Positions 2,974 through 14,187 of a DNA stretch of 44,123 nucleotides are shown in pieces (the first letter of the stretch is position 1; every line of letters starts with the position of its first letter). This DNA comes from Pseudomonadota bacterium (GTDB lineage: Bacteria; Pseudomonadota; Gammaproteobacteria; Burkholderiales; Thiobacillaceae). A program made the position numbers and the translations under genes. The notes under the pieces are model-generated. The model worked only from the letters and a program-made list of their open reading frames with translations, did not search any database and had not been told where the DNA came from. Location: the NCBI GenBank assembly GCA_021826065.1, contig JAKADY010000025.1, forward strand, positions 1-44,123. Direction: 5' to 3'.

Positions 2974-3264
2974 ATGACGACATCGCCCACCGCGCGCCAG
3001 CCCCCCATCCAGGAGGTGTTGCACCGCATCCGCTGGGATCCGGTCTTCGGGCAGGGCCGCTTCGAGCTGGGCTACTGGGACCGGGTGCAGCGTCAGATCG
3101 TGCGGGTGCCGCTCACGCAGGTGCGCACCGACCCGGCCGACCATTTCGCCCTGCGTGTCCTGGACGCGGAAGGGTGTATCGTCGAAATCCCCTATCACCG
3201 GGTCGTTGCTGTCTGGTGCAACGGCACGCTCATCTGGCAGCGGCGGGTCCCCAGCCGGCCATGA
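2974..3264 (+). CDS. DUF504 / MJ1316-type RNA end recognition domain protein
   Basis: This 96-residue single-domain protein starts IQEVLHRIRWDP and shows the family pattern: a WDP motif, a GYWDR strand, and the closing IPYHRVVAVWCNGTLIWQR, which matches the IPxHRI...G...IW signature of DUF504 (Pfam PF04457). That family is described as an RNA cyclic-group end recognition domain and is often linked to RNA repair or tRNA processing. The domain is complete and has no fused partner. The ATG used gives the normal family length. No RNA ligase or nuclease lies beside it, so a precise role cannot be given. Confidence 0.8.
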   Translation: MTTSPTARQPPIQEVLHRIRWDPVFGQGRFELGYWDRVQRQIVRVPLTQVRTDPADHFALRVLDAEGCIVEIPYHRVVAVWCNGTLIWQRRVPSRP

Positions 3265-3356
3265 GCGGGCAAGGGTGGACAACACACCCGAGCTGACGCA
3301 TCTTAACGCCCGAGGCCCCGCATCCCGACGGGGCCCATTCGAGAGGAGAGTGGAGC

Positions 3357-4154
3357 ATGCGCATCGCGATTGGGTTGTTGGCGGTCGGACTGCTGTTGTC
3401 AGTCGCCGCCCGGGCCGAGATCCGCGGCCAGGAGATCAGCTACAGCGACGGCCAGGTCACCATGAAGGGCTATCTCGCCTACGACGACGCCATTGCCGGC
3501 AAGCGCCCCGGTGTATTGGTGGTGCATGAGTGGTGGGGCCACAACGACTACGCCCGCAGCCGCGCCCGCCAGCTGGCGGCGATGGGCTACACCGCCCTGG
3601 CCGTGGACATGTACGGCGACGGTAAGACCGCCGCACACCCCTCTGAAGCCGGCGCCTTCGCCAGCGAGGTGCGCCGCAATTTACCCCTCGCCCAGGCCCG
3701 CTTCGAGGCAGCCTTGAACACGCTGCGCCGGCATCCCACCGTGGCGGCCGATGACATCGCCGCCCTGGGCTATTGCTTCGGCGGCTCGGTGGTCCTGGAG
3801 ATGGCGCGGCTGGGCCTGGACCTCGATGCCGTGGTCAGCTACCACGGCAGCCTGCAGCTCTCCACCCCAGCCGAACCCGGCCGCATCAAGGCCAGGGTGG
3901 CGGTGTTCACGGGCGAGGCCGACCCCATGATCCCACCCGCCCAGGTCGAGGCCTTCCGCAGCGACATGGAGAAGGCGGGCGCCCGGTTGACCATCGTCAG
4001 CTACCCCGGGGTGAAGCACAGCTTCACCAACCCGGAGGCCGACCAGCTCGCCGCCCGCTTCGGCCTGCCGCTCGCTTATGACCGCAAGGCGGACGAGGAC
4101 TCCTGGGCGCGCACCGCCAGCCTGCTGAAAGAGACCTTCAGCCGCGGCAAGTAA
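3357..4154 (+). CDS. Secreted dienelactone hydrolase family protein
   Basis: The 265-residue protein begins with a Sec signal peptide (MRIAIGLLAVGLLLSVAARA, cleavage after ARA). The mature part is a DLH alpha/beta hydrolase with the oxyanion/glutamate region VVHEWWGHNDYA, the nucleophile elbow GYCFGGS (Cys at about residue 140), the acid in GEADPMIP and the catalytic His in GVKHSFTNP. The Cys nucleophile is typical of dienelactone hydrolases, but periplasmic members generally have unknown substrates. The start is supported by a GAGAGTGGAG purine tract just upstream. It stands alone on the plus strand, facing the cytochrome operon across a hairpin-rich spacer. Confidence 0.88.
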   Translation: MRIAIGLLAVGLLLSVAARAEIRGQEISYSDGQVTMKGYLAYDDAIAGKRPGVLVVHEWWGHNDYARSRARQLAAMGYTALAVDMYGDGKTAAHPSEAGAFASEVRRNLPLAQARFEAALNTLRRHPTVAADDIAALGYCFGGSVVLEMARLGLDLDAVVSYHGSLQLSTPAEPGRIKARVAVFTGEADPMIPPAQVEAFRSDMEKAGARLTIVSYPGVKHSFTNPEADQLAARFGLPLAYDRKADEDSWARTASLLKETFSRGK

Positions 4155-4389
4155 GTTAGCGTTAAAGTCGCGCCAGCGACTTCTCGAAGCTCCCCTCGCC
4201 CGCTTGCGGGACCAGCCCGAAGGGCGCAGGACGCAACGAAGTTGCGGTCCCGAGCGTAGCGAGGGATGGGCCACAGGCCCACAGAGGGGCTGGGGGTGAG
4301 GGACCGTTCATGGCCGGCACAGCCGTTTTCATCGGCAGGAGTGGCCATCGGCCATGAACGCTTAGGCTGGCCGCGCCCCCTGCCAGGGA
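4155..4389. repeat. Hairpin-rich spacer between convergent genes
   Basis: The spacer contains a string of short perfect palindromes: GTCGC/GCGAC (4167-4171, 4176-4180), CCCGC/GCGGG (4199-4203, 4206-4210), GCAAC/GTTGC (4233-4237, 4241-4245) and TGGGCC/GGCCCA (4267-4272, 4276-4281). A 12-bp inverted repeat, CGTTCATGGCCG (4305-4316) and CGGCCATGAACG (4349-4360), follows. The flanks CTCCCCTCGCCCGC and GAGGGGCTGGGGGTGAGGG look like the two halves of a common proteobacterial intergenic palindrome with a stem-rich insert. The 12-bp stem could serve as a terminator for the convergent genes but lacks a T-run. Confidence 0.55.
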
Positions 4390-4908
4390 TCAATTCCGGG
4401 GGATGCGCACCTCGCGCTCGGGATAGCGGCCCTCGTTGGCGCGCGTGTGGCAGGCGCTGCAATTTGAGGGGCTGCCGATCCTCGAGCGCTTCCAGATGTG
4501 CGCCGGCACCTCGTCGTGCTGGTGTCTGAACAGCGGGGTCTCGGTGATGCGCTGCGGTGCCGCCCCGCGCGGGATGGAGGCGGCGATGCGGCGCATCAGC
4601 ATGTTGGCGTTGGGGCCGTCGGCGGCGTAATCGGTCAGCCAGCGCAGGATGGCCAGGCGCTCGGGCTCCTCCAGGCTGGCATCCTCGCCGAAGTGGTTGT
4701 CCAGCTCGTTCATCATCTTCTGCCAGGAGCGGGCCGGCAACAGCCCCGGCGCATAGGCGGTGTGGCAACTGCCGCACTCCTTGACGTAGAGCGGCCCCGG
4801 CGGCATGGGAAAGACCACCTCGCTGTCGGCCTGGCCCTGGCCGATCCAGGCACCCGCGAGCACCACCGCCCCGATCAGCACCGACAGATTCCTCCAGTTC
4901 ACGCCCAT
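4390..4908 (-). CDS. dhc: Diheme cytochrome c (DHC), SHP partner
   Basis: This 172-residue protein has an N-terminal hydrophobic signal or anchor (residues 8-23). Two haem-binding motifs follow, CGSCH at 45-49 and CSACH at 150-154, so it is a periplasmic diheme cytochrome. The size, spacing and gene order match the DHC protein encoded beside SHP in purple bacteria such as Rhodobacter sphaeroides, where DHC is the electron partner of the oxygen-binding SHP. It is the last gene of the minus-strand operon, 11 bp after shp. The assignment rests strongly on the neighbouring shp and cytochrome b genes. Confidence 0.85.
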   Translation of the reverse strand: MGVNWRNLSVLIGAVVLAGAWIGQGQADSEVVFPMPPGPLYVKECGSCHTAYAPGLLPARSWQKMMNELDNHFGEDASLEEPERLAILRWLTDYAADGPNANMLMRRIAASIPRGAAPQRITETPLFRHQHDEVPAHIWKRSRIGSPSNCSACHTRANEGRYPEREVRIPRN

Positions 4909-11823: not shown

Positions 11824-12129
11824 TCATTCTCGAGAAGGTTCGCTGCGCCCGCCGCGATGGCGCCGCCCCAGACGGTTGATGATCTCGTCCTCGCTGATGC
11901 GGTCGTCGCCATCCGCATCCAGGCTCTCGAACCGGTAGAGGGCACGTCGGCAGCGCTCGCCGCGACGCTCAAGACAGTCCTGCTGCAAGCGCTGGTATTC
12001 CGCGCGGCTGAGGTAACCGTCACCATCCAGATCGTGCCGGGAGAAGACCTCGGGTGTACCCGCTGAACCGGCCTGTGCCGCGGCGAACATCCCGACCAAG
12101 ACGATTAGGGACAGACGGTGGATGCTCAT
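11824..12129 (-). CDS. Periplasmic EF-hand calcium-binding protein
   Basis: This 101-residue protein has a Sec signal peptide (cleavage near AAAQAGSAG) and two canonical EF-hand loops, DLDGDGYLSRAE (33-44) and DADGDDRISEDE (71-82). Both have acidic residues at positions 1, 3, 5 and 12. It should bind two Ca2+ outside the cytoplasm. Two cysteines (52 and 60) between the loops could form a disulfide. Its ATG overlaps the stop of the hydrogenase-cytochrome gene (ATGA), so the two proteins are translationally coupled and probably work together. The function is unknown. Confidence 0.85.
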   Translation of the reverse strand: MSIHRLSLIVLVGMFAAAQAGSAGTPEVFSRHDLDGDGYLSRAEYQRLQQDCLERRGERCRRALYRFESLDADGDDRISEDEIINRLGRRHRGGRSEPSRE

Positions 12130-13277
12130 TTCGCGTGCCTCAGATAGGCGACCAGCGCCTCCATGTCGTCATCTTCCAGCCTGAAACGGTGCGCACGGAT
12201 GCGATCCGAGCGCAGCAGCGCCGGGACTTCCGCCGGCAGTGTCTTGAGCCGGGCAGGATCGACGTCGTGACAGTAGATGCAATGGCGCTCATAGACCTGC
12301 GCACCCTGCTGCACGCGGTCGGATGGCGCCGGGGCGGGAGGCAGCTCGGCCGGGTCGAGCGGGTGATAGAAACGGCCGCGATCCCAAAAGCCCGCCTCGC
12401 TACAACCCAGACAGGGGTGTCCCGACTCGATGGGGTTGCTGACCCCATTCCAGCGCAGGGTGGCACAAGCGTTGTGGGTGAGCGGCCCCCGGCACCCCAG
12501 CTCCAGCAGGCACCAACCTGCACGCGCGCCCGCATCATCGAAGGCCTTGGCGAAACGGCCCGCCTCGTAATGACCGCGTCGAGAGCAACGATCGTGGATG
12601 GTCTCGCCATAAAAGGCCAAAGGCCGCCCTTGCGCGTCCTGGGGCGGGAAGGTGCCGAAGGCGACGCGATATGCCAAGACCGCGCCGATCACATCGGGCA
12701 CGGGTGGGCAACCGGGGAGGTTGAGCAAGGGCCGCACCGGGACCATCCCTCGCCGCATCAATTCGGCCAAGCCATAGGCGCCGGTCGGATTCGGCGCAGC
12801 CGCCGGCAAGCCGCCATCGCTGGCGCAACTGCCCACCGCCAGCACGGCCTGGGCGGCGGCGAGGCAACGACGCAGCAGGCTCAGATTGGCCTCGCCGGCG
12901 ATGGTGGAACACGCCCCGTCGAGCGCTGTGGGCACGGCCCCATCGACGATCAGCAGGAGCTCGCCGGCGGCGGCCGCGAGCACCTTATCCCGCGCCCGCT
13001 CAGCGGCGGCACCGGCAGCGGCCTGCAGGGTGTGATGGTAGTCCAGCGATATCGACTCGAAGAGCAGCCGCTCGAGGGATGGCGCCGCTGACCGGGTCAG
13101 CGACTCGGTGCAGCCGGTGCATTCCTGGAACGACAGCCAGATCACCGGGACGCGCCCGCGCCGGACAAGCCCCTCGGCCAGCAGACGCGCCGCCTCCGGC
13201 GGCAGGGCCAGCAGGGAGGCGCTCAGCGCGCAGAATTTCAAGAATGCGCGGCGGCTGGTCTGTGGGACAATGTTCAT
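12126..13277 (-). CDS. [NiFe]-hydrogenase small subunit fused to a C-terminal cytochrome c domain
   Basis: This 383-residue protein starts with a Tat signal (TSRRAFLKFC), so it is exported folded. All cluster ligands of a group 1-like small subunit are present: proximal Cys53, 56, 151 and 190 (ECTGC, GSCASDGG, NLPGCPP), distal His228, Cys231, 256 and 262, and medial Cys271, 289 and 292. Position 55 is Gly, not the extra Cys of oxygen-tolerant enzymes. The usual C-terminal membrane helix is replaced by a Pro-rich linker (about 312-320) and a c-type haem domain with CIYCH at 333-337. No obvious axial Met precedes the last helix; His363 is a possible ligand. The large subunit, maturation genes and cytochrome b are absent from the window. 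The EF-hand gene is coupled downstream. The ATG at 13277 is chosen; a GTG at 13295 is also possible. Confidence 0.85.
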   Translation of the reverse strand: MNIVPQTSRRAFLKFCALSASLLALPPEAARLLAEGLVRRGRVPVIWLSFQECTGCTESLTRSAAPSLERLLFESISLDYHHTLQAAAGAAAERARDKVLAAAAGELLLIVDGAVPTALDGACSTIAGEANLSLLRRCLAAAQAVLAVGSCASDGGLPAAAPNPTGAYGLAELMRRGMVPVRPLLNLPGCPPVPDVIGAVLAYRVAFGTFPPQDAQGRPLAFYGETIHDRCSRRGHYEAGRFAKAFDDAGARAGWCLLELGCRGPLTHNACATLRWNGVSNPIESGHPCLGCSEAGFWDRGRFYHPLDPAELPPAPAPSDRVQQGAQVYERHCIYCHDVDPARLKTLPAEVPALLRSDRIRAHRFRLEDDDMEALVAYLRHAK

Positions 13278-13424
13278 GCGTGGATCGAAAGGCACGCGTC
13301 AGCGACCTGCGGTGCTGGGCCTCGTTCATCTCAGCTTGGTCGCTAAAAGGCCCATCCGCAAGTCCTCGAACCCATAGGGCATGCTCTGACCCGTCCACCC
13401 GCCTGCGTATCGTGTAGAATCGCA

Positions 13425-13601
13425 ACGTCACTGGGGAGTAGCCGACCTTCCAGAGGAAGGGGCCCGTATCAACAGACTCGGCGTCGATTCATCGACTCAC
13501 GCCGTGGTGCGGGCAGCCCAGCGCCCGGCAAGACCTTTGACTGCGACGCCCTTTCCCGGCTGGAGGGGGTGGCGCAGTCAGGGTTTTGTACTCCGGCCGG
13601 G
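13425..13601 (+). promoter_or_regulatory. yybP-ykoY manganese riboswitch
   Basis: The leader carries the conserved pieces of the yybP-ykoY aptamer: CACTGGGGAGTAGCC (13429-13443), TCAACAGACTCGG, and GCAAGACCTTTGACTGC, in the right order, as in E. coli alx and mntP leaders. P1 pairs GTCA (13427-13430) with TGAC (13538-13541). The same 3' strand, TGACTGCG (13538-13545), can instead pair with CGCAGTCA (13573-13580), which is followed by GGGTTTT, a terminator-like alternative. This fits an ON switch in which Mn2+ holds P1 and prevents termination. A TAGAAT -10-like box lies at 13415-13420. Confidence 0.92.
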
Positions 13602-13611
13602 AAGCCCACGC

Positions 13612-14187
13612 ATGGAAGCCTTTCTCGTCTCCACCGGTATCGTCGCCCTGGCCGAATTCGGCGACAAGACCCAGCTGCTCTCCTTCGTCCTGGCCGCCAG
13701 GTTCCGCAAACCGCTGCCCATCATCCTCGGCATCCTCGTCGCCACCCTGGCCAACCATGCCGCGGCGGGTGGGCTGGGGGCATGGGTGGCGAGCCTGCTG
13801 TCGCCCATGACCCTGCGCTGGGTCCTGGGGCTTTCGTTCCTGGCCATGGCGGTCTGGGTGCTCGTTCCCGACCGACTCGAGGAGGATGCCAGCCGGCTGC
13901 CCGCCTTCGGGGTCTTTGCGACCACCACGCTCGCCTTCTTCATGGCGGAGATGGGCGACAAGACGCAGATAGCCACCGTCGCCCTGGCCGGCCACTACCC
14001 CACCCTCGCCGCCGTGGTCCTAGGCACGACCCTGGGTATGCTGGTGGCAAACGTGCCGGCCGTTTACTTTGGCGAGCGGGTGGTGCGCCTGCTACCGCTC
14101 CGCCTGGTTCGTTTCACAACGGCCCTGATCTTCGCTGGCCTGGGCGTGGCGACCCTGCTGGGGGCAGGCGCTGACATCGGATTGTGA
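13612..14187 (+). CDS. mneA: UPF0016/GDT1 (TMEM165-like) manganese exporter
   Basis: This 191-residue membrane protein has six predicted helices in two homologous halves, each with the family signature: EFGDKTQ (15-21) and EMGDKTQ (about 115-121). These acidic motifs form the cation path. Bacterial members such as Vibrio MneA export Mn2+. The yybP-ykoY riboswitch directly upstream strongly supports manganese export here. The ATG at 13612 begins at the first helix and gives the normal length; upstream in-frame codons lie inside the riboswitch. Confidence 0.93.
   Translation: MEAFLVSTGIVALAEFGDKTQLLSFVLAARFRKPLPIILGILVATLANHAAAGGLGAWVASLLSPMTLRWVLGLSFLAMAVWVLVPDRLEEDASRLPAFGVFATTTLAFFMAEMGDKTQIATVALAGHYPTLAAVVLGTTLGMLVANVPAVYFGERVVRLLPLRLVRFTTALIFAGLGVATLLGAGADIGL

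Follow-up and report, generated by a model that had tools for sequence, protein, structure and literature searches.

A HynS-cytochrome c fusion encoded apart from hynL: a candidate alternative small subunit of Isp-type [NiFe] hydrogenase

We describe a gene family in which a [NiFe] hydrogenase small subunit (HynS) is joined at its C-terminus to a short c-type haem domain, is kept by selection, and is encoded away from any large-subunit gene. The reading that we favour, with confidence that is about evenly balanced, is that the fusion serves an Isp-type (group 1e-like) [NiFe] hydrogenase as an alternative, soluble small subunit, which borrows the large subunit HynL and delivers electrons to periplasmic cytochromes. 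The window, that is, the whole stretch of DNA analysed, is the complete contig C7 (44,123 bases) of a genome, G000, of 74 contigs and 2.74 Mb that is given as 100% complete. The fusion gene runs on the minus strand from 13277 to 12126 and encodes one protein of 383 residues plus a stop. The plus-strand frames of this interval are interrupted by stops and were ruled out as coding; the initial annotation had the coordinates right, and the frame in question is that of the minus strand. The features of the locus are as follows.

12126..13277, minus strand: HynS-cytochrome c fusion, 383 aa plus stop (open reading frame translation, Pfam and TIGR models, alignment to 3myr)
13164..13277, minus strand: Tat signal region, residues 1-38, with SRRAFLK at 8-14 (RR motif, weak TIGR01409 match)
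12357..13160, minus strand: small-subunit core, residues 40-307, with proximal, medial and distal Fe-S ligands (alignment to 3myr HydA over 42-307, ligand table)
12129..12317, minus strand: haem domain, residues 321-383 (CXXCH, PF00034, AF2 helices)
12267-12281, minus strand: CIYCH haem motif, residues 333-337 (sequence)
12189-12191, minus strand: invariant His363 (alignment of the fusions)
11824..12129, minus strand: EF-hand protein, 101 aa (Pfam EF-hand models; recurrent partner gene)

The protein belongs to the group 1 small subunits, scoring 347.9 bits against TIGR00391 hydA (cut-off 179.5), and it matches PF14720 (102.4 bits) and PF01058 (85.3 bits) above their cut-offs. The fusion is not peculiar to one assembly. 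A family search of 117 Thiobacillaceae genomes gave nine further full-length fusions and one two-piece match, and a scan of GTDB species genomes, 568 of which encode a relative, turned up at least 23 fusion loci, a count that is limited to the 80 best matches. Since seven of the nine are records also present in the GTDB scan, these searches yield 26 distinct fusions (the window, L011, L016, L040-L061 and L102). A sample of the class added five more (L193, L194, L195, L198 and L199), so that the database search suggested in the initial annotation has returned 31 distinct fusions across many assemblies. Carriers in the scan are titled Thiobacillus, Hydrogenophilales, Burkholderiales, Thiohalomonas, Sedimenticola, Chromatiaceae, Beta- or Gammaproteobacteria, or at higher rank only, and they include Sedimenticola hydrogenitrophicus strain SB48 (L058) and the single-contig genome G258. 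Of the 125 plasmid records that match, 30 were listed, and among these none reaches the CXXCH at residue 333 (they end at 304-326), and a sample of the phylum (398 genomes including the window's own, E 1e-90) returned the window's fusion only. One candidate for a truncated fusion, G434/L200, was rejected as a canonical HynS.

Phylogeny of the small-subunit part, likewise suggested at the outset, was run on the core of 26 fusions, 85 canonical sequences and two outgroup rows, with L182, meant as a third outgroup, left out for lack of a usable sequence. All 26 fusions group together in a single clade (support 1.0). This clade joins the Isp-type HynS proteins at a poorly supported node (0.275), and the window protein is 53-63% identical to canonical HynS (matches above 350 bits). 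Nei-Gojobori dN/dS values for four fusion pairs are 0.17, 0.18, 0.14 and 0.15; a fifth pair is saturated at silent sites. The fusion gene is under purifying selection and is no relic. The initial annotation had named, as an outcome that would tell against its proposal, a large-subunit gene adjacent in relatives with the present copy degraded. What is found is no HynL in the DNA covered at any of 23 fusion loci and, in four pairs, dN/dS of 0.14-0.18.

All eleven Fe-S ligands are present in the window protein, and the same eleven are common to the 26 fusions save for C190 of L046, where the bases are unread; an apparent deletion in L046 proved to be this run of unread bases and not a real gap. 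Following family knowledge, we take C53, C56, C151 and C190 as proximal ligands, H228, C231, C256 and C262 as distal ligands, and C271, C289 and C292 as medial ligands. Beside the proximal cluster, E52 is found in 24 of 26 fusions and T54 in all 26, and the residue at E52 is Glu in each of the 85 canonical sequences compared. Both residues presumably have the proton-transfer roles known from Desulfovibrio work. In L041 and L043, which are close relatives, Ala replaces the Glu just before the first proximal Cys (E52 and C53 in the window). The Tat signal is also borne out: SRRAFLK lies at residues 8-14, and an RR motif is found in all 26 fusions, with TIGR01409 scoring 15.5 bits on the window protein, slightly under its cut-off of 16.7.

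Of 118 positions conserved in canonical HynS (the same in at least 95% of sequences), 92 persist in the fusions (kept in at least 90% of them). Retention is uneven. Residues 43-205 keep 51 of 60 such positions, and residues 227-240, around the distal ligands H228 and C231, keep four of 12, against 88 of 106 elsewhere (Fisher p 0.0006, to be read in the light of the segment having been picked after inspection of the data). An insertion of five residues, at about 176-180 ahead of C190, is present in 25 of 26 fusions and not in canonical HynS, L046 being unread there. The available excerpts of PMC4307346 take acidic residues beside the distal cluster, in the HynS of Alteromonas, to be the site that faces the electron partner. 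Taken with the losses in the distal segment, this suggests that the electron-exit side of the fusions is altered more than the part around the proximal cluster.

Past the core, the initial annotation had read the usual membrane helix as replaced by a haem domain, and this is what the alignment of relatives gives as well: the hydrophobic tail is absent and a single CXXCH is present, in the window and in its relatives. The best 19-residue Kyte-Doolittle mean past the medial cluster does not exceed 0.86 in any of the 26 fusions; of 88 canonical small subunits collected, 86 could be scored, and all of these reach 1.18 or more. There is exactly one CXXCH in each of the 26, and loss of the haem attachment motif, the other outcome named as adverse, is seen in none of them. 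PF00034 matches the window protein at 24.3 bits (cut-off 21.3), over residues 323-341 only, and PF13442 at 21.0 bits, under its cut-off of 27. R361 and H363 are invariant in a 25-row alignment from which L046 was left out, and an R[AS]H motif is present in all 26 fusions; L195, a later sequence, keeps the His (GVHRF) and not the Arg. The invariant His follows the haem His by 26 residues, a place from which it could serve as distal ligand. No Met after CXXCH is conserved among the 26 fusions, only 10 of which have any Met there; the Met that is the sixth ligand in class I cytochromes has no conserved counterpart. It is tempting to propose that the haem would be ligated by His/His. An AF2 model places helices at 321-332, 348-356 and 369-382 (block mean pLDDT 72-93); the model is weak overall (mean pLDDT 64.9, pTM 0.59, residues 224-308 mostly below 50) and was used solely for these helices.

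Relatives of this domain occur as separate proteins. In Thiohalophilus thiocyanatoxydans (L066 6755-7039, the same as L204), hynS is preceded by a 95-residue open reading frame that contains CXXCH and a QHRF motif, and the gap between hynS and hynL, about 280-300 bases, leaves no room for isp1 and isp2. When this small monohaem cytochrome was used as query against 274 genomes of the class, including the window's own, it returned itself and six fusion haem domains only (E 0.001). In one lineage, then, the haem domain exists as a protein of its own, encoded beside a hynSL pair that lacks Isp, and in another it has become part of a second HynS. The hynS-hynL gaps of L104 and L113 are also short (838 and 851 bases). 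Two Thiobacillaceae genomes, G104 and G057, have stand-alone cytochromes that share the haem-domain motif, and the 5 kb around these showed no gene for a hydrogenase; it follows that the domain is not exclusive to hydrogenases. The cytochrome of G057 lies near a LexA-like gene. The family and class searches also gave weak matches in G052 and G451.

Directly downstream of the fusion gene, and absent from the initial annotation, is a gene for an EF-hand protein, which overlaps the fusion gene by four bases (ATGA). Its product has a signal peptide-like start, two EF-hands and a basic tail. Recounted by eye and by pattern, the EF-hand gene comes next after the fusion in 22 of 26 cases; it was not found at L016, where the contig ends about 0.6 kb on, nor at L045, L046 and L054. 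It also follows fusions L193, L194, L195 and L198, and in L199 it is frameshifted. The ATGA overlap recurs in L041, L043, L047 and L102. A profile of 22 EF-hand proteins gave seven strong matches in the 117 Thiobacillaceae genomes, in a listing that scored no more than 38 candidates for any genome, and all seven adjoin fusions; the next-best matches, in two other genomes, stand at 3.4e-7 and 6.7e-7. Frames that overlap the fusion and EF-hand genes aside, no other gene family occurs in more than five of the 24 loci compared. Several neighbour clusters proved to be frames overlapping the fusion gene, and only the EF-hand gene is credible as a recurrent partner.

Past the EF-hand gene in the window is a convergent moaA-like gene, whose product has radical SAM and Mob_synth_C domains. 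On the opposite flank of the fusion gene, a manganese riboswitch (yybP-ykoY, RF00080, 69.1 bits) at 13421-13607 on the plus strand precedes a plus-strand open reading frame that starts near 13613 and diverges from the fusion gene. The stretch 13569-14174 has no Pfam match; we take the start of this frame to resemble the UPF0016 family. In L040, a second, partial small-subunit copy lies at 3258-3503, downstream of the fusion and EF-hand genes, and its counterpart in G017:C282, a match of 70% to residues 43-125, carries a stop.

As far as the DNA covered extends, separation from hynL is the rule among the fusions. With the HynL of G000 as query, none of the 23 scan loci has HynL near the fusion, and 16 of them cover at least 3.9 kb downstream; canonical loci of the same scan gave HynL in 44 of 57 cases, 298 to 2986 bases past HynS, and the 13 without it all cover 2.4 kb or less downstream. 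The gene order hynS-isp1-isp2-hynL, by which the accessible part of PMC7735108 describes the Isp type, was found at none of these fusion loci. In G258, a single contig of 3.25 Mb, the fusion lies at 0.26 Mb and hynSL at 2.13-2.14 Mb.

The genome of the window nevertheless encodes a plausible partner. The initial annotation had reported no large subunit within 12 kb to the left, a distance that is the end of the contig, or 30 kb to the right; there is none anywhere on C7. The search of the rest of the genome for large-subunit and hyp genes that it had called for found HynL and a HycI protease on C58 and HypD on C34. The relevant genes are these.

C58:10903-12483: HynL, full-length group 1 large subunit, 797 bits
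C58:15486-16382: canonical HynS with hydrophobic tail
C58:16906-17292: HycI-type protease, the sole one in the genome
C26:60751-61983: second NiFe-type large subunit, Hox-like by layout
C26:60069-60512: small-subunit gene beside the C26 large subunit

Between HynS and HynL on C58 there are an isp2-like frame with CCG and 4Fe-4S domains and, in the isp1 position, a frame of 220 aa with no Pfam match. A weaker large-subunit match on C34 is taken as NuoD-like. With HynL, HycI and HypD in hand, it is clear that maturation genes and a plausible partner exist and that in the assembly they lie away from the fusion. Downstream of hynL on the same strand, C58 (L179) also encodes V/A-type ATPase subunit domains (PF00137 and PF01992, at 784-1365 and 3413-4441).

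Other carriers repeat this pattern. An Isp-type HynL, about 70-87% identical to that of G000 with fragments included, is found in 22 of the 26 fusion genomes, and G011, where the contig breaks 24 residues into HynL (87.5% identity), is the 23rd. In G132 the contig with the canonical HynS stops 2.3 kb past that gene, too early for HynL to be judged. Neither HynL nor canonical HynS was found in G008 and G078, which are 84% and 75% complete. In the sample of the class, 41 of 368 genomes besides the window's own have an Isp-type HynS at a cut of 350 bits, which was our choice. These comprise all seven fusion genomes versus 34 of the 361 without a fusion (Fisher p 1.3e-7, a value that ignores kinship). 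The seven carriers span five families, and two of them (G341 and G287) were also met as L061 and L057. HynL is seen in six of the seven, the last being the genome with the contig end. Within Thiobacillaceae the co-occurrence is uninformative because 95 of the 117 genomes there match the query. The initial annotation had offered two options, a distant large subunit or a repurposed electron-transfer protein. The former gains support from the Isp-type HynL, whole or in part, in its own genome and in 23 of 26 carriers, and the latter is now the less likely of the two.

We propose the following for the fusion. It would be exported by the Tat pathway, probably in complex with HynL from the separate hynS-isp1-isp2-hynL operon. 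Electrons released from H2 at the NiFe site would then run along the Fe-S clusters in the order proximal, medial, distal, and from the distal cluster to a covalently bound c-type haem that would take the place of the membrane anchor and Isp1/Isp2; the haem would in turn reduce soluble periplasmic cytochromes. One catalytic subunit would thereby have two outlets, one in the membrane (HynS-Isp1-Isp2) and one in the periplasm (the fusion). In this scheme we infer HynL binding, haem attachment, the direction of electron flow, the acceptor and any role of the EF-hand protein. That one HynL alternates between two separately encoded small subunits, the membrane HynS with Isp1/Isp2 and the soluble fusion, is a plausible idea against which we would lean very slightly. 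If it is true, the cell could switch H2 electrons between membrane and periplasmic cytochromes. A calcium-dependent switch or docking, conferred by the linked EF-hand protein, is an improbable extension.

Several lines of evidence point to borrowing of HynL: an Isp-type hynS-hynL operon, the HycI protease and HypD in the same genome; HynL in 23 of 26 fusion genomes and Isp-type HynS in all seven carriers of the class sample; the retention of the ligands, of E52 and T54 beside the proximal cluster, and of 51 of the 60 conserved positions in 43-205; the stand-alone relative of the haem domain upstream of the isp-less hynSL of Thiohalophilus; and, in the available excerpts of PMC4307346, an active engineered ferredoxin fusion at the same HynS terminus. 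Against this, conserved sites in the N-terminal part bear only indirectly on HynL contact (no list of HynS-HynL interface residues was found), and the insertion before C190 could affect that contact. L041 and L043 have Ala next to C53. Two fusion genomes show no HynL, although both are incomplete, co-occurrence within Thiobacillaceae carries little weight, relatives of the haem domain are found at places without hydrogenase genes too, and separate genes would hamper balanced co-export with HynL.

The chief competitor, which we think rather unlikely yet worth taking seriously, is a protein that no longer binds a large subunit and serves as a periplasmic wire or shuttle with four cofactors, for instance taking electrons from HynSL or another donor to cytochromes; the EF-hand protein might then be its partner. 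The absence of an adjacent hynL from all 23 loci, the two-gene unit with the EF-hand protein in 22 of 26, the altered residues near the distal cluster and the insertion near the proximal loop would all suit it, and the association with HynSL also fits a shuttle fed by HynSL. However, it is not obvious why a protein that lacks a NiFe site should need the proximal ligands, E52 and T54 or the 51 of 60 positions that are kept, and we know of no unpaired hydrogenase small subunit that has been described. A wire or shuttle without HynL fits the same genome facts less well than a subunit that borrows HynL. The frequent EF-hand neighbour, whose strong Thiobacillaceae matches lie solely beside fusions, and the export of a protein with a full redox chain could instead speak for signalling or assembly, in which the fusion would bind HynL or sense the redox state of the H2 pathway and report through the EF-hand protein with no respiratory current. 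We consider this improbable, as the two-gene unit has no regulator, kinase or sensor domain and no other family exceeds five of 24 loci.

Pairing with another large subunit, for example the Hox-like one on C26, has the existence of that second gene in its favour. It is very improbable: the C26 gene has its own small-subunit gene beside it, the core of the fusion is closest to Isp-type HynS, further long group 1-like large subunits were read by us in only nine of the 26 fusion genomes, and it is implausible that a small subunit exported by Tat would pair with a large subunit of the cytoplasm. Finally, a degraded relic or an assembly chimera might be suspected from the metagenomic origin of most named carriers, from the frameshifted EF-hand gene of L199, and from the partial extra small-subunit piece of L040 with its stop-carrying counterpart in G017:C282. 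This has next to no likelihood, given 31 distinct fusions, strain SB48 and single-contig G258 included, a single fully supported clade of the 26 in the tree, dN/dS of 0.14-0.18 in four pairs, and a gap in L046 that is merely unread bases.

The small and large subunits of [NiFe] hydrogenases are usually treated as fixed pairs from one operon. In the parts of the open-licence literature that were accessible, no description was found of a HynS fused to a cytochrome c in nature, of a small subunit that is an orphan, or of a large subunit that is shared. A small subunit that is under selection, has its own haem domain and no large subunit found beside it, and occurs in many beta- and gammaproteobacterial genomes suggests two alternatives: either a single catalytic subunit can exchange one electron outlet for another, or the small subunit no longer takes part in catalysis. 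TIGR00391, a general family model, would label the fusion simply as a hydrogenase small subunit.

Among known systems, the closest is the Isp-type (group 1e) enzyme of Allochromatium vinosum, 3myr, which is the best structure match by sequence (346 bits, residues 42-307) and also the first by Foldseek (57% identity). The fusion is like Isp-type HynS/HydS in its eleven ligands and Tat signal. It differs in having no membrane helix, a C-terminal haem domain, no hynL beside it, an insertion of five residues before the proximal loop, and changed residues round the distal ligands. The small class I c-type cytochromes (PF00034, PF13442) are alike in CXXCH and in the three helices of the AF2 model; unlike them, the fusion's haem domain is very short and has an invariant His in place of a conserved Met. 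The 'two small subunits' of PMC6501319 were considered as a precedent and rejected on the available part of that source. In the hydrogenase cluster of a Methylovirgula plasmid (L221 13118-14200), a second 'large subunit' gene, of 360 aa, follows the hypC gene.

The Isp-less HynSL enzymes of Thiohalophilus and Alteromonas macleodii, like the fusion, have an outlet other than Isp1/Isp2; in contrast to the fusion, they have the small- and large-subunit genes side by side and a cytochrome that is not joined to HynS. Alteromonas is an exception among close relatives to the C-terminal membrane helix of HynS. As far as the accessible text of PMC3102683 goes, the A. macleodii hynSL cluster includes a gene named cyt, and according to excerpts of PMC4307346 the Alteromonas HynS tail probably does not anchor the protein in the membrane. 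The protein annotated as the cytochrome in a related operon, on a Glaciecola plasmid, has 264 aa and several CXXCH motifs. The same excerpts of PMC4307346 describe an engineered Alteromonas HynS-ferredoxin, in which a redox domain was placed on the truncated HynS C-terminus, near the distal cluster; the protein is active, and more so than before when dithionite alone supplies the electrons. It follows from these excerpts that the HynS C-terminus tolerates an added redox domain. The engineered protein is artificial, its carrier is a ferredoxin and its HynL comes from the same cluster. The fusion described here would be a natural version of such C-terminal redox fusions, by which engineers wire hydrogenases to other carriers.
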